DNA of 64,000 nucleotides from Thermus thermophilus (GTDB lineage: Bacteria > Deinococcota > Deinococci > Deinococcales > Thermaceae): contig NZ_AP025158.1 of the NCBI RefSeq assembly GCF_019974155.1, forward strand, positions 992,001 through 1,056,000. The letters run 5' to 3'. Shown here in pieces: positions 13,093 to 26,520 of this stretch. Within the stretch, counting starts at the first letter, position 1; every line of letters begins with the position of its first letter. A program made the position numbers and the translations under genes. The notes below the pieces were generated by a model. The model was not told the DNA's origin and did not search any database. It worked only from the letters and a program-made list of their open reading frames with translations.

Positions 13093-15507
13093 ATGCTACC
13101 GGAAACCCTGCCCGTCTGCCCGGTGCGGGGCTCGGTCATCTACCCCACCATGGTGATGCCCATAGACGCCGGGAGGCCCATCTCCATCCGGGCCATTGAC
13201 GAGGCCCTGGCCCGCGACCGGGTTCTCCTCATCGTGAGCCAGAGGGACAAGGAGGTGGAGACCCCCAAGCCCTCGGACCTCTTTGAGGTGGGCACGGCCT
13301 GCAACATCCTCAAGATGCGCAAGAACCCGGACGGCTCCGTCCAGGTGCTGGTGCAGGCCTTCGCCCGGGTCCGGGTGAAGGAGTGGCTGGACCTGGGGGA
13401 CCACCTCGAGGCCCGCGGCGAGGTCCTCGCCGACGAGCCCGGGGAGCCCATTCTGGTCAAGGCCCTGGTCCGGGAGGTCAAGGACAAGTTCCAGGCCCTC
13501 CTCAAGGAGGGGAAGTACCTGGCCCCGGAGGTGGCCCAGTTCATCCTGAACCTGGAGGACCCCTCGCAGCTCGCCGACTACGTCGCCTTCCACATGGACT
13601 TCCGCCTCGAGGACAAGCAGAAGGTCCTGGAGACGGCGAACGTGGCCGAGCGCCTGCGGGCGGTTTTGGTGCTCCTGGAGGGGGAGCTCGCCCTCATTGA
13701 GACCCAGCGGCGCATCCAGCAGCAGGTCAAAGAGGAGATTGACCGCAACCAGCGGGAGTACTTCCTCCGGGAGCAGATGAAGGCCATCCAGCGGGAGCTC
13801 CACGGGGAGGAGGGGGAGCAGGAGGTGGAGGAGTTCCGCAGGAAGCTTGAGGCCCTGGACCTTCCCCCTGTGGTGCGCCAGGAAGCGGAGCGGGAGCTCA
13901 ACCGCTTCGCCCGCATGCACCCCGACTCCGCCGAGGCCAGCGTCATCCGCACCTACCTGGACTGGATCGTCCACCTCCCCTGGAACACCCGCACCGAGGA
14001 CAACCTGGACCTGGAGCGGGCCAAGGAGATCCTGGAACGGGACCACTACGGCCTGGAGAAGGTGAAGGACCGGGTCCTGGAGTACCTGGCGGTGCGCAAG
14101 CTCAAGGCGGAAAGGGCCAGGCGGGGGGAGATCCCGGCCGAAGAAGTAAACAAGGGCCCCATCCTCCTCTTCGTGGGGCCGCCGGGGGTGGGGAAGACCT
14201 CCATCGCCAAGAGCATCGCCGAGGCCCTGGGCCGCAAGTACGTGCGCATCTCCTTGGGCGGGGTGCGGGACGAATCGGATATCCGGGGGCACCGCCGCAC
14301 CTACATCGGGGCCATGCCGGGCCGGATCATCCAGGGCCTGAGGCAAGCCGGGACCAAGAACCCCGTCTTCCTCCTGGACGAGGTGGACAAGCTGGGCATC
14401 TCCTACCAGGGGGACCCGGCGGCGGCCCTCCTGGAGGTCTTGGACCCCGCCCAGAACAAGGAGTTCGTGGACCACTACCTGGGGGTGCCCTTTGACCTCA
14501 GCGAGGTGATGTTCATCTGCACCGCCAACTTCCCCCAGAACATCCCCGCCCCCCTCTACGACCGGATGGAGCCCATTGAGTTCACCAGCTACACCGAGCA
14601 GGAGAAGCTGGAGATCGCCAAGCGCTACCTCCTGCCCAGGCAGCTAAAGGAAAACGGCCTCGAGCCCGAGCAGGTGGTGGTGACCGAGGCCGCCCTCATG
14701 CGCCTCATCACCCACTACACCCGGGAGGCGGGGGTGCGGCAGCTGGAGCGGGAGATCGGGGCCCTCCTCCGCAAGGCCGCCCGCAGGATCCTGGAGGAGG
14801 GCAAGAAGCGGGTGCGGATCACGGAGAAGGACCTGGAGGCCTACCTCGGCCCGCCCCGCTTCCTCCCCGAGACCGAGGCCCGCCATCCCCAGGTGGGGGT
14901 GGCCACGGGGATGTACTACACCCCCGTGGGCGGGGACATCATGTTCGTGGAGGTCTCGGTGATGCCCGGAAAGGGCAACCTCATCCTCACCGGGCAGCTC
15001 GGCGACGTGATGAAGGAGTCGGCCAGGGCCGCCCTCTCCTACGCCAAGAAGAACGCCCACCGCTTCGGCATCCCTCTGGAGAAGTTTGACAAGTCCGACA
15101 TCCACATCCACGTGCCCGCGGGGGCCATCCCCAAGGAGGGGCCGAGCGCGGGGGTGGCCCTCGTGAGCGCCCTGGTCTCCGCCCTCACCGAGGTGCCGGT
15201 GCGGCACGACATCGCCATGACCGGGGAGATCACCCTCACGGGCAGGGTCCTCCCCATCGGCGGGGTGAAGGAGAAGGTGCTGGGGGCGAGGCGGGCCGGG
15301 ATCCGGGAGGTGATCCTGCCCAAGCTCAACGAGCCCGACCTCTCCGACATCCCCAAGCCCCTCCGGCAGAACATGACCTTCCACTTCGTGGAGCACCTGG
15401 ACCAGGTTCTGGACCTGGCCCTGGTGGGCGGCCTCAAGGCCTTGGAGGAGGGGGGCAGGCGCTCTAGGAGCGTCCGGAGGAAGAAGGAGCTCGTGGCCCA
15501 CGCCTAG
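13093..15507 (+). CDS. lon: ATP-dependent protease Lon
   Basis: Lon degrades misfolded and regulatory proteins in the cytoplasm. From the ATG at 13093 it has 804 aa: N-terminal substrate-binding domain ([22 protein letters not shown]), coiled-coil linker, AAA+ domain with Walker [16 protein letters not shown] and Walker [12 protein letters not shown], and a C-terminal peptidase domain with the Ser in [15 protein letters not shown] and the Lys partner in [19 protein letters not shown]. The ORF can be read from 13054, but the strong Shine-Dalgarno AAAGGAGGG 6 nt before 13093 and the family N-terminus favour the inner start. It overlaps convergent bshA by 4 bp. Confidence 0.96.
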
Positions 15508-16604
15508 CCCAGGGCCTTGGCGTAGACCTCCAGGTAGGCCCGGGTGATCCTTTCCGGGTGGAAGCGCAGGAGGGCCCACTCCCGGGCCCTCCTCCTTATC
15601 TCGGGGAGGCGGGGGCTTCCCAGGAGGTCCAAGGCGGCCTCCGCCAGGGCCTCCAGGTTGCCGAGCTCCACGAGCCGGCCCACCTCGGGGGTGACCACCT
15701 CGGCCACCCCGCCCACCGCCGTGGCCACCACGGGGACGCCGGAGGCCAGGGCCTCGAGGGCTGCCTGGCCGAAGGACTCCTCCTCCGAGGCCAGGAGGAA
15801 AAGGTCCGCCGCCCCCAGGACCTCTTCCGGGTGGGGGGTGGGGGGGTGGAAGGTGACCCAGGGGGCGACGCCGAGCTCCGCCGCCACCCGCCGGGCCTCC
15901 TCCTCCTCGGGGCCGGTGCCCAGAAGGAGGAGCCTGGCGGGAAGGCGCTTCCTGATTTTGGCGAAGGCCCGGACGATGTCGGGCACCCGCTTGATGGGGC
16001 GGAAGTTGGAGGCGTGCACGAGGAGCCACTCCCCCTCCTCGGCGTAGAGCCTCTTGCGCTCAGGTCTAGGGCGGAAGCGCTCCGGGTCCACGGCGTTGGG
16101 GACCACCACCGCCTCCACCCCGAAGGCCCGCTTGGCCTCCTGGGCCAGGGCCCGGCTTACCGCCGTGACCGCCCGGGCGGCCTCGAGGGCGCGGCGGGTG
16201 GGGCCGTGGAAGGCGGGGTCCATCCCTACCACGGAGACGTCGGTGCCGTGGAGGGTGTGGACCAGGGGGAGGCCTTCCCCGAAGGCGAGGTAGGCCGCGG
16301 CGGCGTGAGGGACGGCGTAGTGGGTGTGGACGAGGTCCAGGCCAAGCCGCTTGGCCTCCCGCTCCAGGGTGCCCGCCAGGGAGAGGGTGTAGAGGGGTCC
16401 GGGGAAGACGGGGTAGTAGGGGAGGTCCACGGGGACGTGGACCACGGGGCTCGCCTCGGGGAGGCGGAAGGGGCGGGACGTGGCGAAGAGGTAGACCCGG
16501 TGCCCCATCCGGGCCAGGCGGTCGGCGAGCTCGGCGGCCACCGTCCCGCTTCCCCCAAGGCCCGGGTAGGCCACGAGGCCCAGGCGAAGCTCCTCCCGGC
16601 GCAT
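15504..16604 (-). CDS. bshA: N-acetyl-alpha-D-glucosaminyl L-malate synthase BshA (bacillithiol pathway)
   Basis: The 366-aa GT4/GT-B glycosyltransferase transfers GlcNAc from UDP-GlcNAc to L-malate, the first step of bacillithiol synthesis. BshA-type marks are the opening [52 protein letters not shown], the very typical [11 protein letters not shown] (about 208-218) and the donor-site [23 protein letters not shown]. It starts 9 nt after the Lpt permease gene on the same strand; a TAGGCT -10-like box plus 6 nt precedes the ATG, so it may also have its own leaderless promoter. bshB and bshC are not in the window. Confidence 0.88.
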
Positions 16605-16613
16605 GCCCTAAGC

Positions 16614-17720
16614 CTAGCGAAGGGCCCTGAGGCCCAGAAGGAGGAAGAGCAGGTTGGCCCCCCAGGCCCCAAGCTCAGGGGGGAGGGCCCCGATCCCGGC
16701 CAGGGCCCGGCCCAGGAAGAAGGCGCCGTAGTAGGCCAGGGCAAGGACCACGCTCATCCCCAGGGCAAGTCCCGGGCTTTTCCCGTAGCGGAGGGCCATG
16801 GCCGCCGCGAGGAGGACGAGGACCAGGTTGGCGAGGGGAAGGGCGAGCTTGGAGTGGAGCTCAAGCCGCGCCCGCCACTTCTCCAAGGGGGGCAGGAAGG
16901 GGTCCTTGAGCTTCCGCCAGGCCTCCGAAAGGCTGTCCTGGCCGAAGCTGAAGGTGTCGGCGTAGTCGGCGATGGCCCGGGCCCGGGAGAGGTCCGAGGT
17001 TACCTCCAGGGCCTTTCCCTGGCTCACCACCCGGAAGACCCGGCGCACCTGGGCGAGGAGGTCGGGGGCGGTTTCCAGCCCCGGCACCTGGCCGAAGTCC
17101 ACCTGGTAGTAGCGGTAGTCCTTGAGGGTGAGGGTCTTGTCCTCCCAGGTGCCCCGCTCGGCGAAGAGGAAGGTGCCCACCTCCCCCTGGAAGGCGGTGA
17201 TCCGCACCCCCACCATCTCCTTGGCCGCCATGTCAAAGTCCTGGAAGTAAAGGCTCTTGCCCTGGCCTATGGGGATCTGCATCCCCTTGAGCCGGAAGAG
17301 GCCCGCCCCTTGGGTGTGGATCTCGTCCCACCAGGCCACCCGCACCCGGTTGTTGGCCTCCGGGACCACGTACTCCTGGAGGTAGAGGGCGAGGCCGCTT
17401 AGGACCGCCCCCACGGCCACGAGGGGGAGCGCCGCCCGCCCCAAGGGGATCCCGGCGGAAAGAAGGGCGAAGTGGGCCCCCTCGGCGGCGAGCCTGCCGA
17501 AGACCAGGACCGTGGTGGTCACCAAGGCGATGGGGAAGACCTGGACCCAGATCCCGGGGACGTGGTAGGAGAGCCAGCGGAGGATCTTGGGGAGGGGCAC
17601 CCCCTCAAGCCACCTCGCCCCGGCGTAGAAGAAGCCGAAGAGGTAGACGGCGGTGAGGAAGAGGAGGGCGAGGAGGAGGACGGGGAGGCTCTCCCTGAGG
17701 AGGTAGCGGTGGAGGATCAT
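16614..17720 (-). CDS. LptF/LptG (YjgP/YjgQ) family permease
   Basis: 368 aa with the LptF/G layout: three N-terminal transmembrane helices (about 10-30, 52-75, 95-118), a roughly 150-residue periplasmic beta-rich domain (FRLKGMQIPIGQGKSLYFQDFDMAAKEMVGVRI ...), and three C-terminal helices (about 275-365). The N-terminus LHRYLLRESLPVLLLALLFLTAV is typical. In LPS bacteria LptF and LptG with LptB extract LPS from the inner membrane; Thermus is not known to make classical LPS, so the cargo is an inference. Coupled by a 4-bp overlap to the LptA-like gene upstream. Only one such permease is visible here, and no lptB. Confidence 0.86.
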   Translation of the reverse strand: MILHRYLLRESLPVLLLALLFLTAVYLFGFFYAGARWLEGVPLPKILRWLSYHVPGIWVQVFPIALVTTTVLVFGRLAAEGAHFALLSAGIPLGRAALPLVAVGAVLSGLALYLQEYVVPEANNRVRVAWWDEIHTQGAGLFRLKGMQIPIGQGKSLYFQDFDMAAKEMVGVRITAFQGEVGTFLFAERGTWEDKTLTLKDYRYYQVDFGQVPGLETAPDLLAQVRRVFRVVSQGKALEVTSDLSRARAIADYADTFSFGQDSLSEAWRKLKDPFLPPLEKWRARLELHSKLALPLANLVLVLLAAAMALRYGKSPGLALGMSVVLALAYYGAFFLGRALAGIGALPPELGAWGANLLFLLLGLRALR

Positions 17721-18346
17721 GGGAGGCGCTTTGCGTAGGCCTCGAGGCGGGCCGCCTGGGCCGGGAGCTTGGTCGTGGCCTGCACCTTCCCTCCCGCGAA
17801 GCGGAGGTAAAGGCGGGCGTCCTTCCCCTGGCCCCGCAGCGTGGCCTTCCCCTCCTGGTAGGTGAAGCTCCCCAGGGCCAGGGCCTCCCGGGCCTTGAGG
17901 TCCACCACCAGGGCCTCGGCCTGGAGCCTGGGCGACTTGGCCTGGACCCGCCCCTTCAGGACCACCACCTCCTCCTCAAAGAGGGCCAGGGCGCGGTCCG
18001 CCCTCAGGTCCTGGAAGTCGGGGTTGGCGAAGAGGAGGTCCTGGAAGAGGGCCTGTTGCTTGGGGATGTCGTGCTCCAGGGAGGCAGCCGCAAACCGCTC
18101 CTTCTCGGAGAGGAGCTCCACCTCCCTGGCCCGGACGAAGCTTCCTTCCTTGTAGGCGATGTAGGCCGCCTTGAGGCGGAGGCCGTTCTCGTTGTCGGTG
18201 AGGATCCCTCCCTGGGGGAGGGTGGTGACGCCGGTGTCCAGGTCCAGGCGCTGGGCCCCGAAGGGCTCCACGCTGAAGGTGGCGAACCGGGCCCCCAGGG
18301 CGAGGCCCACGAGGCCCAAGAGGAGGGTCCAGGCCAGGCGCTTCAT
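17717..18346 (-). CDS. LptA/OstA-like periplasmic protein
   Basis: 209 aa with a signal peptide or anchor (1-19, MKRLAWTLLLGLVGLALGA) followed by repeating short beta units of the OstA/LptA type (GLRLKAAYIAYKEGSFVRAREVEL; LRADRALALFEEEVVVLKGRVQAKSPRLQAEALVVDLK). It probably forms a beta-jellyroll that receives lipid from the permease encoded next to it (ATGA overlap). The much longer upstream frame is ignored: the ATG at 18346 lies 7 nt after the -10 box TAGAGT. Not a close relative of enterobacterial LptA; the assignment rests on pattern and neighbourhood. Confidence 0.72.
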   Translation of the reverse strand: MKRLAWTLLLGLVGLALGARFATFSVEPFGAQRLDLDTGVTTLPQGGILTDNENGLRLKAAYIAYKEGSFVRAREVELLSEKERFAAASLEHDIPKQQALFQDLLFANPDFQDLRADRALALFEEEVVVLKGRVQAKSPRLQAEALVVDLKAREALALGSFTYQEGKATLRGQGKDARLYLRFAGGKVQATTKLPAQAARLEAYAKRLP

Positions 18347-18353
18347 GGGTTTT

Positions 18354-18359
18354 ACTCTA
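18354..18359 (-). promoter_or_regulatory. -10 box TAGAGT for the Lpt/bshA operon
   Basis: On the minus strand TAGAGT is followed by AAAACCC (7 nt) and the ATG at 18346. The surrounding GGGTAGAGT is the same string as at the esterase promoter at 11186-11194. Confidence 0.6.
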
Positions 18360-18363
18360 CCCG

Positions 18364-18378
18364 TCCTTTCTGAAAGGA
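18364..18378. promoter_or_regulatory. Inverted repeat between divergent promoters
   Basis: TCCTTTC and GAAAGGA arms around a single T, centred at 18371. The site lies 5 nt upstream of the leftward -10 and 22 nt upstream of the rightward -10, a position suited to an operator acting on both. Confidence 0.4.
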
Positions 18379-18400
18379 AGCTTAGGCGGGGCTTTCCCGG

Positions 18401-18406
18401 TATAGT
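18401..18406 (+). promoter_or_regulatory. -10 box TATAGT for the O-antigen-ligase-like gene
   Basis: TATAGT, 6 nt (GCCTCT), then the GTG at 18413: leaderless spacing. No obvious -35. Confidence 0.6.
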
Positions 18407-18412
18407 GCCTCT

Positions 18413-19846
18413 GTGCGCGGTCTGGCCTTCCTCCTCGCCTTGGCGCCCCTCCTTCCCCCGCTTGCGGGGCTTGCCCTTTTCTTCGTGCCCTGGGTCCGGC
18501 GGCTTCCCCTTTGGGGGCAGGCCCTGCTCGCCCTCTACGGGGCGAGCCTCCTCCTGCCCGCCCTCTTCGCCCCGGAGCCTTTGGCCTGGCCTTTGGCCCT
18601 CTTCCGCTTCCTCTACGTCCTCGGCCTGGTGGGGCTTGGGGTGGCCCTGGGCAGGCCGGAGCGGGCCCTTGGGGCTTGGGGCGTGGGCCTCTTCCTCCTC
18701 TACCTCACGGGCTTCGCCGCCACCTACTGGGTTTGGGGGGACGGGGCGGTGCGGGCCCGGCTCAGCCACCCCTTCCACAGCCCCGTGGGCTTCGGCTTCC
18801 TCGGGGGGCTCGGCCTCCTCCTCGCCCTCCACCTCCGCTACCCCTGGCCCTTCCGGGCCCTCCTGGGCCTTCTGGGGGGGGCGGTTCTCCTCCTTTCGGG
18901 GAGCCGTGGGGGGATGCTGGGCTTCCTCGTGGGCGGGGCGGCGGCCCTCCTCTTCCGCAGGCGGGGCCTTCTCGCCCTGGCCTTAGGGGGTGGGCTTCTC
19001 CTCGCCGCCTTCGCCCTGAACCTTCCCGCCACGGAGCGCTTCTTCCAGGCCCACCTTTCCGGGAGGGAGGGGGTGTGGCTCGCCGCCTACCGGGTCTTCC
19101 AGGAGCACCCCTGGACGGGGGTGGGGCCCTACCTCCTCGGGGAGCGGATCGGGGGGGTGCTCTTCGGGGACTGCTTCCTCTTTCCCCTCCTCGAGGCCCG
19201 GGGGCTTACCTGTCCCGACTGGCTCAGGCCCTGGGGCGGGCTTTGGACCTTCGCCCACAACCACCTCCTCCAGGCCCTGGGGGAAGGGGGGGTCTTCGGG
19301 GCGGTGGGGCTTCTCCTCCTCGCCGGGGGGTTCCTCGCGGGGGCCTGGGGGGACGGCCTCCTCTTCGGCCTTCTCGCCGCCTATTTGGGGATGGGGATGG
19401 TGGACAACCCCTTCAGCGTCCCGAGCCCCTTCCGGGGCGAGGTCTTCTTCCTCCTCGGGGGGATGGCCCTGGCCCGCCTCGAGGGGGGGCGGGCTCCCCT
19501 GGGGCTGGGGCTTGCCGGGGGGGTGGCCCTCCTTTGGTCCCTCCCCTTCCTTTACCTGGCGGCCCGCCCCGAGGGGCCTCCCCCGGCCCTCCGCTACCTC
19601 GTCGTCCCGGATCGGGGCGGCGAGGGGGCGGTGGCCCTGGAGAAAGGCGAGGGGTACCGCCTCCAGGTCTGGCTCTGCGCCGAGGGGTGCCGGAGGCTCG
19701 GCTGGGAGTGGTCGGCGGAGAAGCCCGTCCGCTTCCCCCTTCCCGAGACCCCCATAGAGGGGAAGAGACTCGTGCTCGTGCTCTTCCGGGAGGGGGGCTT
19801 GGCCTTGCGGCCCGCCTTCCTCCTGGAGGGGGAGGTGGGGCGGTGA
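18413..19846 (+). CDS. O-antigen ligase/polymerase-like (WaaL/Wzy fold) membrane protein
   Basis: 477 aa, with about ten to twelve hydrophobic helices and the WaaL-type layout: a large extracytoplasmic loop after about residue 200 (FFQAHLSGREGVWLAAYRVFQEHPWTGVGPYLLGERIG) containing the family hallmark of a variable loop with R/H residues, then WTFAHNHLLQALGEGGVFG with the conserved H-N-x-x-L. The C-terminal 110 residues form a soluble tail (LRYLVVPDRGGEGAVALEKGEGYRLQVW). The family ligates or polymerises surface glycans on lipid or protein acceptors. The GTG start is 6 nt after TATAGT. It overlaps the next gene by 4 bp. Confidence 0.8.
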   Translation: MRGLAFLLALAPLLPPLAGLALFFVPWVRRLPLWGQALLALYGASLLLPALFAPEPLAWPLALFRFLYVLGLVGLGVALGRPERALGAWGVGLFLLYLTGFAATYWVWGDGAVRARLSHPFHSPVGFGFLGGLGLLLALHLRYPWPFRALLGLLGGAVLLLSGSRGGMLGFLVGGAAALLFRRRGLLALALGGGLLLAAFALNLPATERFFQAHLSGREGVWLAAYRVFQEHPWTGVGPYLLGERIGGVLFGDCFLFPLLEARGLTCPDWLRPWGGLWTFAHNHLLQALGEGGVFGAVGLLLLAGGFLAGAWGDGLLFGLLAAYLGMGMVDNPFSVPSPFRGEVFFLLGGMALARLEGGRAPLGLGLAGGVALLWSLPFLYLAARPEGPPPALRYLVVPDRGGEGAVALEKGEGYRLQVWLCAEGCRRLGWEWSAEKPVRFPLPETPIEGKRLVLVLFREGGLALRPAFLLEGEVGR

Positions 19847-20244
19847 GGTGGGCCTTGGGGGTCCTGGCCCTCGCCCTGGGGCTTGGGGCGGGGCTTTGGG
19901 GGCTGGAAGGGGGGCTTGCGCCGAAGCCCCTCCCCTTTGGCGGGTGCCGCCCGGGGCCCCTCCCCGAGCGGGCGGACCTCTACGCCAACGGCGTGGTGGA
20001 GATCCCCCTCTGCCGGGAGGCGGAGGTGGTCCTCCGCCTCGAGGGCACCCCCGCGAAAGGGGAGGGTCCCTGGGCCGTGGTGGCCGAGGGGGACCGGGTG
20101 CTCTGGCAGGGGGAGGTCCTGGGCCTAAAGGAAGTGCGGGTCCGGACCACGGGGCGGGGCGTGCTCGTCCTCGCCTTCCTCAACGACCTCTACGCCCCTC
20201 CGGAGGATCGGAACCTCTTCCTGCGGGAGCTTAGGGTGCGCTAA
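19843..20244 (+). CDS. Membrane-anchored protein with CBM60-like carbohydrate-binding motif
   Basis: 133 aa starting from a GTG that overlaps the ligase stop (GTGA), so the two are translationally coupled. Residues 3-20 form a hydrophobic signal/anchor (WALGVLALALGLGAGLWG). The rest is a small beta sandwich: VVEIPLCREAEVVLRLEGTPAKGEGPWAVV, then LVLAFLNDLYAPPEDRNLFLRELRV. The FxND ... DRNLxx pattern resembles the calcium-dependent xylan-binding module (CBM60) signature. It may present or bind the glycan handled by the upstream ligase. The 3' end overlaps convergent pheA by 14 bp. Confidence 0.6.
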   Translation: MRWALGVLALALGLGAGLWGLEGGLAPKPLPFGGCRPGPLPERADLYANGVVEIPLCREAEVVLRLEGTPAKGEGPWAVVAEGDRVLWQGEVLGLKEVRVRTTGRGVLVLAFLNDLYAPPEDRNLFLRELRVR

Positions 20245-21070: not shown

Positions 21071-21104
21071 ATGATACCTTAGGCCTTGGCCCTTGCCGTA
21101 GCAT
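21071..21104. promoter_or_regulatory. Divergent leaderless -10 boxes for pheA and the response regulator
   Basis: Leftward TATCAT (21076-21071) is followed by 6 nt and the pheA ATG at 21064. Rightward TAGCAT (21099-21104) is followed by 7 nt and an in-frame GTG at 21112. Neither has a clear -35. Confidence 0.5.
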
Positions 21105-21111
21105 GGGTTTC

Positions 21112-21852
21112 GTGGCGCGCCTTTTGGTGGTGGACGACGACCCCCAAATCCGCTACCTCCTGGAGGTGCTCCTTTCCGGCTCGGGCCACGAGGTGACCGT
21201 GGCGGACTCGGCCAGGGCCGCCCTGGAGCACCTGCGCAAGGAGACCCCCGACCTCATCCTTTTGGACATCATGATGCCCGATATGGACGGCCTCTCCCTC
21301 CTGGGGCGCATCCGCGCCGTTCGCTGCCTGAGCAAGGTCCCCGTCATCCTCTTCACCGGGGGAGGACGGGAGCTGGAAGGGGTGGGGAAGGCCTTGGGGG
21401 CGGACCTCTTCCTGGAAAAACCCGTGTCCGGGCGGCGGTTGAAGCAGGCGGTGGAAAGCCTTTTGGGCCGGGAGGGGTACCTTCTGCCCGGGGGGGAGCG
21501 GGTGGCCACCCTTCAGGAGGTGTGCTCCCGCCTCGCCCAGGCCCTCCCCAAGGAGGAGCGCTTCCGGGAGCTTTGGCGGAAAACGGCAGGCCGTCGGGCC
21601 CTTCTGCAAAACCTGGTGGCCAAGGGCTGGACCGAGGCGCTTTTGCGCCGCATCCTCCCCGGGCCGTACGACCTCTACGACCTTTTGGGCCACCTGGCCT
21701 ACGGCTGGCCCCTGGTGCCCATCGCCGAGCGGGCGGCCCGGGCGAAGGACCCCCGCTTCGCCGGGCTCCTCGAGGCCTACCTGGAGCGCCAGGGCCTTCC
21801 CCTGGAGGGGGACGGCCTCCTGGAAGACCTCGCTCGGGCCCTGTACCCTTGA
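21112..21852 (+). CDS. Response regulator with uncharacterised C-terminal domain
   Basis: 246 aa from GTG 21112 (an ATG three codons upstream at 21103 is the alternative and is part of the TAGCAT box). Residues 1-118 are a CheY-like receiver: acidic pocket VVDDDP, phospho-acceptor Asp in LILLDIMMPDMDG, Thr in VILFTGGG and Lys in FLEKPVSG. The remaining 125 residues are helical (LQEVCSRLAQALPKEERFRELWRKTAGRRALLQNL ... GPYDLYDLLGHLAYGWPLVPIAERAARA) and match no DNA-binding output domain known to me. No histidine kinase is adjacent. It lies 3 nt from the FemX-like gene, suggesting one operon. Confidence 0.82.
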   Translation: MARLLVVDDDPQIRYLLEVLLSGSGHEVTVADSARAALEHLRKETPDLILLDIMMPDMDGLSLLGRIRAVRCLSKVPVILFTGGGRELEGVGKALGADLFLEKPVSGRRLKQAVESLLGREGYLLPGGERVATLQEVCSRLAQALPKEERFRELWRKTAGRRALLQNLVAKGWTEALLRRILPGPYDLYDLLGHLAYGWPLVPIAERAARAKDPRFAGLLEAYLERQGLPLEGDGLLEDLARALYP

Positions 21853-22922: not shown

Positions 22923-22956
22923 GGTCGTGTAAGGATTTATGTGTAAGGGCCCGTGT
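22923..22956 (+). repeat. Left terminal inverted repeat of the IS
   Basis: Begins GGTCGTGTAAGGATTTATG. It pairs with the right end, with about seven mismatches over 34 positions. Confidence 0.9.
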
Positions 22957-22994
22957 TTAATAGGGGGGCACACCTTAGCACGAGGAGGTGCCCC

Positions 22995-24173
22995 GTGGAC
23001 CAGGATACCTTGCGGATCTTGCTGAGGGAAGCGGTGCGGGAGACAGTAGCCGAGGTTCTGCAGACGGTTCTGGAGCTGGACCGGACAGCCTTCTTGCAGG
23101 TGCACGGGGGGCGCAGGAACGGCTACTACCCCCGCAAGCTGGAGACCACCTTCGGCCAGGTGGACCTGAAGGTCCCTAGGGATCGGGAATCTCGGTATTA
23201 CCCGGCTTTCCTTAAGCCCTACGCCCGCCGCCTGGTGGACGTGGGGGAAGTAGCTGTGGCCTTGTACGCCGCCGGGGTCAGTCAGCGCAAGGCGGCCGAG
23301 ATATTGAGCCTGCTCTTAGGCCACCGCTACTCCCACGAGACCCTAAGCGCTCTGACCGACCAAGTCCTGGAGGCGGCAGGAGCCTTCCGCACCCGGCCTT
23401 TGCCCGAGGAGATGGCCTTCGTCTACCTGGACGGGCTTTCCTTAAAGGTCTTCAGGGAAGGGGAAGGGATTGTGCGGGAAACGGTGTATGTGGCCCTGGG
23501 CATCGCCCCTGATGGGGAGAGGCGGGTCCTGGGGTTCTGGCTGTTGCCCACGGAGAGCGCCCTGGGATGGGAGGGGGTCCTGGGGGAGCTTTGGCAGCGG
23601 GGCCTGCGGCGGGTATTGCTCTTCATCACCGACGGGCTGCCCGGGCTTCCTGAAGCGATCCGCAGGGTCTACCCTCAGGCGGAGTGGCAGCGGTGCGTGG
23701 TGCACGGGGTGCGGTGGAGCCTGTCCCAGGTGCGGGCGCGGGACCGGGGCCTGCTGGCGGAGGACCTGAGGCGGGTGTACGGGGCGGAGAGCAGGGATGA
23801 AGCCCTTAGGGCCTTGGAGGAGGTGAAGGCCGCCTGGGGTTCGCGGTACCCGGGGGTGGTGGGGCTTTGGGTACAGGATTCGGGGGCCTTCCTGCGGTTC
23901 TACGGGTACCCCAAGGTGCTTTGGCCGTACCTGCGGAGCACCAACCTGATGGAGCGGTTTATCCGGGAGCTACGGCGGGGGACGAAGGTGCGGGACCACA
24001 AGTTTCCTAAGGAAGAGGCGGTGTACAAGCTCCTTTACCTGGAGTCAGAGAGGCAGGAAGGGAGGTGGGCAGAACGGAAACTAAAGGGGTTCTCGGAGGT
24101 GAAGGAGGTGCTGGAGAAGATGCTTCAGGAGCGGTATGCCCCCCGTACACAGACTCTTACACATAACTCTTGA
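22995..24173 (+). CDS. IS256 family (mutator-type) transposase
   Basis: 392-aa DDE transposase. The GTG at 22995 is preferred over an upstream ATG because GAGGAGGTG lies 5-13 nt before it. Catalytic residues fit the family: Asp146 in VYLDGLSLKV, Asp213 in LLFITDGLPG and Glu320 in STNLMERFIRELRR; the conserved C/H segment WQRCVVHGVRW lies between. The N-terminal helical region (1-30) resembles the IS256 DNA-binding start. Codon use is looser (more A/T at third positions) than in neighbouring genes, consistent with transfer. The stop codon lies inside the right inverted repeat. Confidence 0.96.
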   Translation: MDQDTLRILLREAVRETVAEVLQTVLELDRTAFLQVHGGRRNGYYPRKLETTFGQVDLKVPRDRESRYYPAFLKPYARRLVDVGEVAVALYAAGVSQRKAAEILSLLLGHRYSHETLSALTDQVLEAAGAFRTRPLPEEMAFVYLDGLSLKVFREGEGIVRETVYVALGIAPDGERRVLGFWLLPTESALGWEGVLGELWQRGLRRVLLFITDGLPGLPEAIRRVYPQAEWQRCVVHGVRWSLSQVRARDRGLLAEDLRRVYGAESRDEALRALEEVKAAWGSRYPGVVGLWVQDSGAFLRFYGYPKVLWPYLRSTNLMERFIRELRRGTKVRDHKFPKEEAVYKLLYLESERQEGRWAERKLKGFSEVKEVLEKMLQERYAPRTQTLTHNS

Positions 24174-24188: not shown

Positions 24189-24733
24189 TGCGGCTTCTCC
24201 TCCTCCTTCTCGCCCTAGGCCTCGCCCTTGTCCTTTGGCCCCGTCCCGCCGAGGCGCCCAAGGAGGCGGGGGTGCGGCTTTACGGCGTGGCCTTTCACCT
24301 CTTTCCCGAGGAGGAAGGGGTGGAGTGGCGCTTTGCCGCGGAGGAGATGGTGGAGGAGGGGGGGCGCTTTAGGGTGCGGGGGGGGCTTTCCGGAGGGCGG
24401 TACGTGGAGGGCAGGCTGGACCTGCGCCTGTTCGCCCCCGAGGTGGTGGTGGAGCCCGGGGACAACCTCCGCCTCCCCTACGCCCGGGTGGAGATCCTGA
24501 AGGGGTGCTACCGCCTGGAGCTTTCCCGGCCCGGCCTCGGGGACGTCCTCATCCGGCAGAAGGAGGGGTTTTTGGCCCCATGGGTGCGGATTGAGGCGCC
24601 CAACCTCCGGGGCGAGGCGGAGCGCTTCCGCTCCGACTTCGCCCTGGAGCGGATTGAAGCGGAAAACCCTCGGTTTGAGTTCCCCGCCGGGGGGAGTTTC
24701 GGACCTTGCCAGGTGGAAGGAGGAAGCGGATGA
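24185..24733 (+). CDS. LptC-like membrane-anchored periplasmic protein (5' region hit by IS)
   Basis: 182 aa from the GTG at 24185 (a second GTG follows at 24188). Residues 1-20 are a single hydrophobic anchor (VVRLLLLLLALGLALVLWP). The rest is beta-rich: VRLYGVAFHLFPEEEGVEWRFAAEEM, LRLFAPEVVVEPGDNLRLPYARVEIL, reminiscent of LptC, plus two Cys residues (KGCYRL, GPCQVE) that could form a disulfide. It overlaps the next gene by 4 bp. The coding frame survived the insertion, but its own promoter is now displaced. A TTG at 24170 inside the IS could give a longer start. The LptC label is by pattern and context. Confidence 0.62.
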   Translation: MVRLLLLLLALGLALVLWPRPAEAPKEAGVRLYGVAFHLFPEEEGVEWRFAAEEMVEEGGRFRVRGGLSGGRYVEGRLDLRLFAPEVVVEPGDNLRLPYARVEILKGCYRLELSRPGLGDVLIRQKEGFLAPWVRIEAPNLRGEAERFRSDFALERIEAENPRFEFPAGGSFGPCQVEGGSG

Positions 24734-25590
24734 AGCGGACGGCATGGGTGCTCTTGGGCATGGCCTTGGTCTTCGCGGCCTCGGAGGTGCGGGTGATCCG
24801 GGTGGAGGGAGGGCGGCTTTCCGGGGACCTCCGCTACGGTCCCTGGGTCTTTGAGGGGGAGGTGCGGGGGCGGGTGAAGGACCTCGCCATCCTCGCCCCC
24901 AAGGCCACCCTCATCGCCCCGAAGGGCAAGACCATGCAGGAGGCGGAGGGGGAGCGGGAGGCCCGGTTTGAGGGGGGCGTGGTGGTGCGGAGGGGCCGGG
25001 TGGAGGCCCGGGGGCCCACCCTCGTCTACCGGGAAAGCACCGGGGAAGGGGTCTTGATGGGGCCTGCCCGCATGCGCCAGGAGCCCAAGCCCGGGGAGGA
25101 TCCCGTGGAGGTGGAGGGGAGCCGCATGACCTTCCAGGTGGACACGGACACCTCCACCACGGAAAACGCCCTCCTCAAGAGCGGCAACCAGGAGGGGCGG
25201 GCGGGGTTTGTGTACTACGAGGAGGAGCGGGGCCTCGCCGTCTTCACTGACCCCAAGGAGGTGGTCCTCGTCCGCAAGCGCAAGGACGGGGACCTGAGGA
25301 TCCGGGCCAAGGAGGTGCGGAGCCTCACCGGCCCCAAGAAGCTCATCGCCACCGGGGGAGTGGTCCTCGAGGACGGCGACCTCGTGACCCGGGGGGAGAG
25401 CCTCTACTACGACGACACCACCGGGGAGGCCATCGTCTTGGGGAGGCCCGCCGTGAGCGAGAACGCGAAGGAGGGCTTCCGCCTTTCCGGGGCCACCCTC
25501 CTCCACAACGTGAACCGCCACCAGGTCCGGGTCTACGGAAAGGCCTTCCGCCTCCCCGTGGAGGACTTTAAGAAGCTTGGGGAGAAGTAG
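24730..25590 (+). CDS. OstA/LptA-like periplasmic protein 1
   Basis: 286 aa with a signal peptide (1-18, KRTAWVLLGMALVFAAS) and repeating OstA/LptA beta units: GRVKDLAILAPKATLIAPKGKTMQEAEGEREARFEGGVVVRRGRVEARGPTLVYRE, and later LIATGGVVLEDGDLVTRGESLYYDDTTGEAIVLGRPAVSE, the latter very typical of the LptA/OstA domain. The ATG overlaps the LptC-like stop and has AAGGAGGAAGCGG upstream, confirming the start. Immediately followed by a second paralogue. It probably forms part of a periplasmic lipid bridge; the transported lipid is unknown. Confidence 0.8.
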   Translation: MKRTAWVLLGMALVFAASEVRVIRVEGGRLSGDLRYGPWVFEGEVRGRVKDLAILAPKATLIAPKGKTMQEAEGEREARFEGGVVVRRGRVEARGPTLVYRESTGEGVLMGPARMRQEPKPGEDPVEVEGSRMTFQVDTDTSTTENALLKSGNQEGRAGFVYYEEERGLAVFTDPKEVVLVRKRKDGDLRIRAKEVRSLTGPKKLIATGGVVLEDGDLVTRGESLYYDDTTGEAIVLGRPAVSENAKEGFRLSGATLLHNVNRHQVRVYGKAFRLPVEDFKKLGEK

Positions 25591-26520
25591 GTGCCCTGGC
25601 CTAGGCTCCCCCTCCTTTTCCTCCTCGGCCTGGCCCTCGCCCTGGCCCAGGAGGTCTACCGCCCGGAGGTGGAGCTCGTCCGCAAGGACAAGAAGGTGGT
25701 GGCCTGGGTCTCGGGGGAGGAGGGGAGCCTCTTCTACGCGGACTACGGGGACCTCCACGTGGGGGAGCTTGTGGCCCTCACCGGGGACCGCGCGGTGGTG
25801 GGGGAGCGGGCCTTTTTCCTGGACGCGGGGAGCGTCCTCGAGGAGGGCCTTTCCCCGGGGGACCGGGTGGAGGCCGCCTACAACAAGGACCTCCTCCGGG
25901 AGGGGCTTCCCTACCTGATGCGCCTTAGGCGGGCGGGGGAGGAAGGGGCGAAGACCTACCTCCGCCTCGTCCTCTACGACCCCAAGGGGGTGGAGGTGCG
26001 CCTGGGGGAGGAGGTGGAGGCCCGGGGGCCCCTGGCCCTGGTGGAGCGGGGGGGGAGGGAAGAGCTTCTTCTCTCCGGGGGCGAGGCCCGCTTTCTGGAG
26101 GAGGAGGGGCGCCTCGAGGTCCGGCCCGCCCCGGGGGCGGTGGCCCTCGCCCAGGGGGCGACCCGGGTGGAGGGGGTGAGGCTCCGCTACCGCAATGACA
26201 CCGGGGAGGCTCTCTTGGAAGGGCCCTTGGCCTTGAGCCGGGAAGGGGAGAAGCCCCTAAAGGGCAAGGCCCAGGCCCTCCGCTACTTCCTGGACGAGGA
26301 CGCCCTCTGGCTTCTTGGGGGCGTGGAGTTCGTCCAGGGGGGCCGCACCACCCGGGCGGAGCGGGCGCTTCTCCGGGAGAAGGAGGGGTACGCCTACCTC
26401 TACGGCGGCGTGGAGAGCCGGGACGAGAAGGGCTTCGTCCGGGGCGAGCGGGTGCGCTACGCCCTCAAGACGGGGGAGGTGGTGGTCCTCGGCCGGGTGG
26501 CCGGGGAGCTTCGCGAGTAA
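25591..26520 (+). CDS. OstA/LptA-like periplasmic protein 2
   Basis: 309 aa starting with GTG right after the previous stop. Signal peptide about 1-20 (PWPRLPLLFLLGLALALAQ). OstA-type units: VEARGPLALVERGGREELLLSGGEARFLEEEGRLEVRPAPGAVALAQGATRVEGVRLRYRNDTGEALLEGPLALSRE, then YFLDEDALWLLGGVEFVQGGRTTRAERALLREKEGYAYLYGGVESRDEKGFVRGERVRYALKTGEVVVLG. The first third (EVELVRKDKKVVAWVSG ... VGELVALTGDRAVVGERAFFLDAG) is different and unassigned. Last gene of the operon, ending at a hairpin of the repeated family. Confidence 0.78.
   Translation: MPWPRLPLLFLLGLALALAQEVYRPEVELVRKDKKVVAWVSGEEGSLFYADYGDLHVGELVALTGDRAVVGERAFFLDAGSVLEEGLSPGDRVEAAYNKDLLREGLPYLMRLRRAGEEGAKTYLRLVLYDPKGVEVRLGEEVEARGPLALVERGGREELLLSGGEARFLEEEGRLEVRPAPGAVALAQGATRVEGVRLRYRNDTGEALLEGPLALSREGEKPLKGKAQALRYFLDEDALWLLGGVEFVQGGRTTRAERALLREKEGYAYLYGGVESRDEKGFVRGERVRYALKTGEVVVLGRVAGELRE

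Follow-up and report, generated by a model that had tools for sequence, protein, structure and literature searches.

We analysed a 64,000-nucleotide stretch of Thermus thermophilus DNA (the window; bases 992001-1056000 of the main contig of a 2.17-Mb genome, labelled G000 in the comparisons). Two forward-strand genes with GTG starts lie side by side in it. The first (18413..19846, 477 aa) encodes a Wzy_C/O-antigen-ligase-like membrane protein, as identified by Pfam. The second (19843..20244, 133 aa) encodes a membrane-anchored protein that we call CBM60-like, on the basis of its anchor, a modeled sandwich domain and profile homology. The 4-bp overlap claimed for the two frames is confirmed, with the letters GTGA (19843..19846) common to the ligase stop and the start of the smaller gene. 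Upstream, a 66-bp intergenic region (18347..18412), probably a shared control region, separates the pair from two divergent reverse-strand genes, which themselves overlap by 4 bp: one for a 209-aa protein in the LptC position (17717..18346) and one for an LptF/LptG-type export permease (16614..17720; Pfam LptF_LptG, E 9.6e-60). The comparison set comprised 111 genomes of the order, 27 of them of the genus; the carriers are 22 Thermaceae, made up of 21 genus members and G071.

The overlap is conserved in 21 of 22 copies, the exception being the second copy in G069 (L062/L135), where the ligase is broken. The ligase frame is also interrupted in G052, G061 and G063, none of which has another copy, and in G061 the small gene is interrupted too; these are assembly errors or recent decay, and intact copies exist elsewhere. 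The small frame is not a chance ORF, since its homologues are full length at 51-70% identity (22 copies) and third codon positions are the most variable in seven of seven pairs compared. Among the 111 genomes, the small protein is matched in 26 at E 1e-3 and in 25 by profile search. These 25 are 21 of the 27 genus members, G071, and three genomes of a second family whose named member is of the Trueperaceae. A match in G022 (L025) was rejected: it was poor, lacked the conserved motif and was not recovered by the profile search. All 22 Thermaceae carriers have both the ligase and the CBM60-like gene, six genus members have neither, and the two are paired again in the three Trueperaceae genomes, so that the claimed pairing is upheld by the co-occurrence check proposed with it. 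A plasmid search gave no match to the small protein and one weak match to the ligase, in Deinococcus gobiensis; a PHROGs search gave none.

The divergent neighbours are as constant as the pair itself. By comparison of coordinates, all 22 carriers have the 209-aa gene next to the ligase gene and divergent from it, and the permease gene comes next after it in the 21 genus carriers and in G071. The 209-aa protein has no Pfam match but is conserved across the order (98/111 genomes), and the permease scores against NCBIfam LptG with E 2.8e-31, under the cut-off of that model. A further protein of about 540 aa, conserved in Thermus (L119-L136, cluster 3), has a signal-like start, paired Cys residues and, by eye, a barrel-like C-terminus. 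Its gene is at most ~1.3 kb from the CBM60-like gene in 19 of 22 carriers and elsewhere in the genome in G000, G061 and G066. Pfam, NCBIfam and PDB sequence searches gave no support for LptD, and an hhalign comparison with an LptA-like protein was weak (E 0.0021, probability 13%); as a guess by eye, this protein may be an LptD equivalent or other outer-membrane barrel. LpxC was found in none of the 27 genus genomes and in 4 of 14 named control genomes, which argues that the acceptor of any ligation here is not lipid A. The Lpt system of these phyla has been described as reduced, with the transport question left open (PMC8871954).

Other genes of the window touch on the same subject. LptA/LptD_N-like proteins are encoded at 24706-26520 (+), one match being over the cut-off (E 5.9e-9) and one below it (E 0.004). 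Homologues of these proteins lie near pheA in two genomes that lack the pair and its divergent neighbours (L126, L127), so part of the Lpt-type set survives loss of the module. A Mutator-family transposase (22953-24173, +; Pfam E 2.1e-90) is flanked by a FemAB gene on one side and the LptA-like genes on the other, and a response regulator (21103-21852, +) has a receiver domain followed by an odd output domain, an EcoEI_R_C match (E 9e-8). On the other side, a reverse-strand glycosyltransferase gene adjoins the module (15504-16604); its product is over the NCBIfam BshA cut-off (TIGR03999, 334.1 against 273.7 bits), a match that denotes bacillithiol synthesis.

The larger protein of the pair matches Pfam Wzy_C with E 1.9e-10 (41.1 bits against a cut-off of 31.7); NCBIfam gave no match for it or for the small protein. 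Among 28 aligned ligase homologues from three families, S164, R165, R218 and H282 are invariant (28/28). The Ser-Arg pair S164-R165 is encoded at 18902..18907, and His282 (19256..19258), in the large periplasmic loop, is a candidate catalytic histidine; in a distant ligase homologue, a conserved loop His mediates ligase activity (PMC9938171). The core was modeled as helical, but poorly (mean pLDDT 53). The model is better for a C-terminal, predicted periplasmic tail (approximately residues 389-477; 19577..19843), a seven-strand Ig/FN3-like sandwich (pLDDT ~80) with two conserved Cys residues. This tail resembles FN3 and GH2 sandwich domains with Z up to 8.0, in the range that the tool calls common. 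We considered whether the tail is a second, degenerate CBM copy and rejected this reading, because the profile scores are weak (E 0.34 against the CBM60-like family; 0.035, probability 1.5%, against related modules of hydrolases) and the tail looks Ig/FN3-like instead. Ligase homologues occur in 38 genomes: the 22 carriers and 16 from two other families. Those of the family-f4 loci L053, L055 and L059 stop short of the tail, and a motif scan of eight f4 loci found no hidden CBM neighbour. Since these related ligases do without it, the CBM60-like partner would be dispensable for the basic ligase reaction.

In the three Trueperaceae genomes, the gene order of the pair is reversed, again with overlapping frames. 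At L023 and L026 (L078 is the same locus as L026), the CBM60-like gene stands ahead of a Wzy_C gene with a 4-bp overlap; at L024 the overlap is 17 bp, and the downstream frame runs off the contig and has no Pfam match of its own. Upstream, each locus also encodes a third small protein, whose N-terminus is hydrophobic. Its profile aligns weakly with the Thermus ligase tail over 78 columns, and the Cys pair falls near register (hhalign E 1e-4, probability 58). If that match is right, the tail would be a separate subunit in Trueperaceae that is fused to the ligase in Thermus. Scanned neighbours include GT4, WecG, a TupA-like ATP-grasp protein and a polysaccharide flippase-type protein, and judged by these genes the setting is more like an exopolysaccharide locus.

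The Trueperaceae setting bears on the nature of the enzyme, as the Wzy_C family also covers polymerases. The Wzy_C protein could be one of these, with the small protein as a co-polymerase that grips the chain as it grows and so sets its length, a reading consistent with the WecG, TupA-like and flippase genes beside the Trueperaceae pair and with the six carriers that have only one Wzy_C match (G046, G047, G048, G049, G053 and G067). We nevertheless think it unlikely. The module protein is a single orthologue at a constant site beside the genes for the LptC-position and LptG-like proteins in 22 of 22 carriers, whereas most carriers have other Wzy_C genes that vary in number from genome to genome. 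Moreover, the known co-polymerase Wzz has two TM helices and a helical periplasmic domain; the small protein has one TM helix and a beta sandwich, and there was no Pfam match to Wzz. The contrast between a single conserved orthologue in the module and variable Wzy_C genes elsewhere leads us to regard the former as a putative ligase.

The predicted membrane anchor of the small protein is borne out by a hydrophobic N-terminus, modeled as a helix over residues 2-24 (19846..19914). The anchor is variable among the 22 Thermus-type copies, and the domain that follows (residues 36-133; 19948..20241) is conserved. The FLND...DRNL pattern noted in the original prediction is present at residues 112-125 (20176..20217), within a conserved F-x-[ND]-D-x-Y-x-P-P-x-D-R-N-L-F-L. 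F112, D115, D122, R123, N124 and L125 are invariant in 22 of 22 copies, and all of these but L125 are also invariant in a 16-row alignment that includes modules of hydrolases. Two Cys residues, C35 and C57, are invariant in the 22 copies. By analogy with CBM36 and CBM60, the motif is a candidate Ca2+/sugar site, with N/D114, D115, D122 and N124 as the putative Ca2+ ligands.

The claimed resemblance to CBM60 holds at the level of homology and falls short at the level of family membership. Pfam CBM60 (PF16841) covers residues 102-132 with E 0.0021 and 18.9 bits, below the cut-off of 28.2; having missed this curated threshold, the protein is called CBM60-like and not a CBM60 member. A pattern scan of contigs found 18 loci: seven in named Thermus species, one in Trueperaceae (L078) and ten in other phyla (Planctomycetota, Armatimonadota, Verrucomicrobiota, Coatesbacteria and others). 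All ten matches in other phyla lie in large proteins (1469 aa at most; the shortest, of 888 aa, is truncated by a contig end), each with two modules near its C-terminal end. Against the 20 modules from these ten parent proteins, the Thermus family aligned with hhalign E 1.2e-17 and probability 98.9, and BLASTP of one small protein/module pair gave 38/120 identities (E 2e-11). Both of the two parents scanned with Pfam are GH2-type proteins in which CBM60 is over the cut-off (E 2.8e-23 and 3.8e-33). On these alignments, the small proteins and the CBM60-type modules found in GH2-type hydrolases are homologous. PDB sequence searches with A2 and A4 found no relatives; A5 reached the CBM60 chains 2xfd and 2xhh at only E 0.77 and 0.93, and A10 reached CBM36 1ux7 at only E 0.14, with the Ser-Asp of 1ux7 aligned to the Asn-Asp of the module. 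A circular permutation that links CBM36 and CBM60 has reportedly been described. Xylan is the ligand of the namesake CBM60 family, and we find nothing in support of xylan binding by the Thermus protein, which had been part of the comparison as first drawn.

An AlphaFold model (16 rows) has, after the helix, eight strands spanning residues 44-132 (mean pLDDT 79.7). Structure prediction had been suggested as a check on the original prediction, with a fold other than a beta sandwich counting against it; the predicted fold is a beta sandwich. Which sandwich is nearest is ambiguous. Foldseek found nothing below 1e-3, its best matches being GOLD domains (2.6e-3), and GOLD also leads in VIA-align (Z 10.5, rmsd 2.3, 88 aligned). 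Many sandwiches follow near Z 8-9, including CBM36 chains at 8.1-8.4: XynJ, which we take to be a CBM36 protein, at 8.4, and 1ux7 at 8.1 (rmsd 3.3, 89 aligned, 15% identity). We know of no sugar binders among GOLD domains. There are no solved CBM60 structures among the best 50 VIA-align rows, which does not count against the CBM60 likeness. We regard the small protein, as modeled, as a CBM-type sandwich whose sequence points to CBM60-type modules and whose nearest fold may be GOLD or CBM36.

The GOLD matches raise a different possibility, a structural or allosteric role for the small protein, as a subunit that would contact protein or lipid and no sugar, in the manner of the single-TM partners of SEDS polymerases or of GOLD-domain adaptors. 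A single TM helix with a compact sandwich would suit such a role. It would have no need of the acidic D...DRN motif, which is invariant across Thermus, Trueperaceae and the hydrolase modules, and for that reason we hold a purely structural subunit to be doubtful and favor a subunit that would grip a glycan.

The six genus members without the pair (G050, G057, G060, G064, G065 and G068) lack the 209-aa and full permease genes as well. Five of these genomes are 99% complete and G065 is 65% complete. C-terminal permease fragments with stops persist in G057 and G050, and most genomes, including these six, have another LptF/G-type gene that is only distantly related. Of the ~540-aa gene, G060 and G065 retain a fragment and the other four nothing. 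Since the 209-aa gene is present in 98 of the 111 genomes, its absence from the six is most simply loss. A LigA codon tree (29 genomes, 630 codons, one gene) placed five of the six: G050 is sister to the genome of the window (support 100), G068 falls among carriers (95-100), G064 is beside G070 (92), and G057 and G060 are basal. On this one-gene tree, the module was probably lost at least four times.

Joint loss of adjacent genes could come from physical linkage alone. In G000, however, the ~540-aa gene is ~250 kb from the pair, and the sister genome G050 has neither; the disappearance of this distant gene too argues for a link that is functional and not merely positional. LigA of G000 is 99% identical to that of G050, whereas its permease is 98% and its LptC-position protein 98-99% identical to those of G061, the nearest relative for the permease gene. 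On these figures the genomes look mosaic, a caveat on the account of joint loss, and lineages may have exchanged the region that holds the module. The joint loss, the divergent lptG-like genes, the periplasmic tail of the ligase and the reversed Trueperaceae pairing all go beyond the original prediction.

That prediction, of a ligase-type enzyme beside an anchored CBM60-like module, is supported, and we propose that the pair carries out the periplasmic ligation step in a pathway to a surface glycolipid. The WaaL-like Wzy_C protein would move a polyprenyl-linked glycan onto a lipid acceptor at the outer face of the inner membrane. The CBM60-like protein, which we infer to be in physical complex with it, would be a dedicated non-catalytic subunit that grips the glycan through its putative Ca2+ site and keeps the donor chain or the product beside the ligase loop and the Ig-like tail. 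The product would then exit by the neighbouring Lpt-type route, that is, the LptG-like permease, the LptC-position protein and possibly the barrel-like protein. The small protein had been suggested as either a glycan acceptor or a holding factor; the latter fits best, and nothing points to the former. In our estimate, there is about an even chance that it does hold the glycan, in a Ca-dependent manner, as a subunit of a WaaL-like ligase that acts together with an Lpt-type export route. More broadly, and tentatively, lipid-A-less diderms might build an LPS-like glycolipid with a ligase that has a Ca2+ lectin subunit and deliver it over an Lpt-type bridge, the whole being a dispensable module that is lost as a block; we see this as possible but on balance improbable.

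A ligase of this family need not act on lipid. Protein O-oligosaccharyltransferases of the Wzy_C type exist, and pilin glycosylation occurs in Thermus, so the enzyme could be of the PglL/TfpO type, glycosylating a pilin or an S-layer protein, with its specificity set by the small protein. The genes that adjoin the pair in the carriers inspected are lptG-like export genes and not pilin genes (beyond the module, part of the neighbours were scanned with Pfam), and we consider this reading improbable. That the two genes are unrelated neighbours kept together by chance is very improbable: 4-bp overlaps do occur at other pairs of this compact genome, the lptG-like pair for example, but co-occurrence is complete and the pairing recurs, independently and reversed, in a second family.

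A ligation unit with a glycan-holding subunit would have partial parallels. In cellulose synthesis, BcsB is a membrane-anchored periplasmic partner of a glycan-making enzyme and has sandwich carbohydrate-binding domains; it is far larger and serves a processive synthase, and its likeness to the small protein is one of fold (Z 8.2). RodA-PBP2 and FtsW-FtsI likewise join a polytopic glycosyltransferase to a single-TM periplasmic partner, but there the partner is a transpeptidase. The Ca-dependent xylan-binding modules of CBM60 and CBM36 share with the small protein the sandwich, the ND...DRN(L) motif, homology by way of the hydrolase modules and the CBM36 fold matches. The Thermus protein differs in standing alone, in its membrane anchor, in its synthetic-enzyme partner, in scoring under the Pfam cut-off and in having its own Cys pair. 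With the O-antigen ligase WaaL, the Thermus enzyme shares the Wzy_C domain, the invariant Arg and the loop His, and it also adjoins an Lpt-type permease gene; it differs in its C-terminal Ig-like tail, in its dedicated CBM-like partner and in the lack of the lipid A marker LpxC in its genus, a lack that speaks against a lipid A-core acceptor, so that we file it only as WaaL-like. WadA of Brucella is a bifunctional O-antigen ligase with a ligase domain and an extra domain, the latter a cytoplasmic glycosyltransferase (PMC9938171), whereas the tail and partner in Thermus are predicted to be periplasmic. Passages of a review on how capsules are attached mention Wzi, a lectin of the outer membrane, and no ligase-bound lectin (PMC12220298). 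Within the portions of the open-licence literature that we covered, there is no account of a ligase paired with a CBM-like protein.

The position of the Thermus pair near genes like those of LPS export points to a subunit whose dedicated task would be to hold sugar in the making of a surface glycolipid, in bacteria without ordinary lipopolysaccharide. Apart from chain-length regulators, the usual picture of WaaL and Wzy enzymes is of glycan transferases that act alone. A conserved subunit that binds glycan would offer a way into the question of how these enzymes choose or hold their substrates, and the natural presence and absence of the module in near relatives (G000 with it, G050 without) makes the question testable. 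The module also hints at the cargo of the reduced Deinococcota Lpt route when lipid A is absent. If our reading is true, a lectin subunit of a Wzy/WaaL-superfamily enzyme, sharing common ancestry with the CBMs of hydrolases, would represent a new type of glycan-assembly complex.
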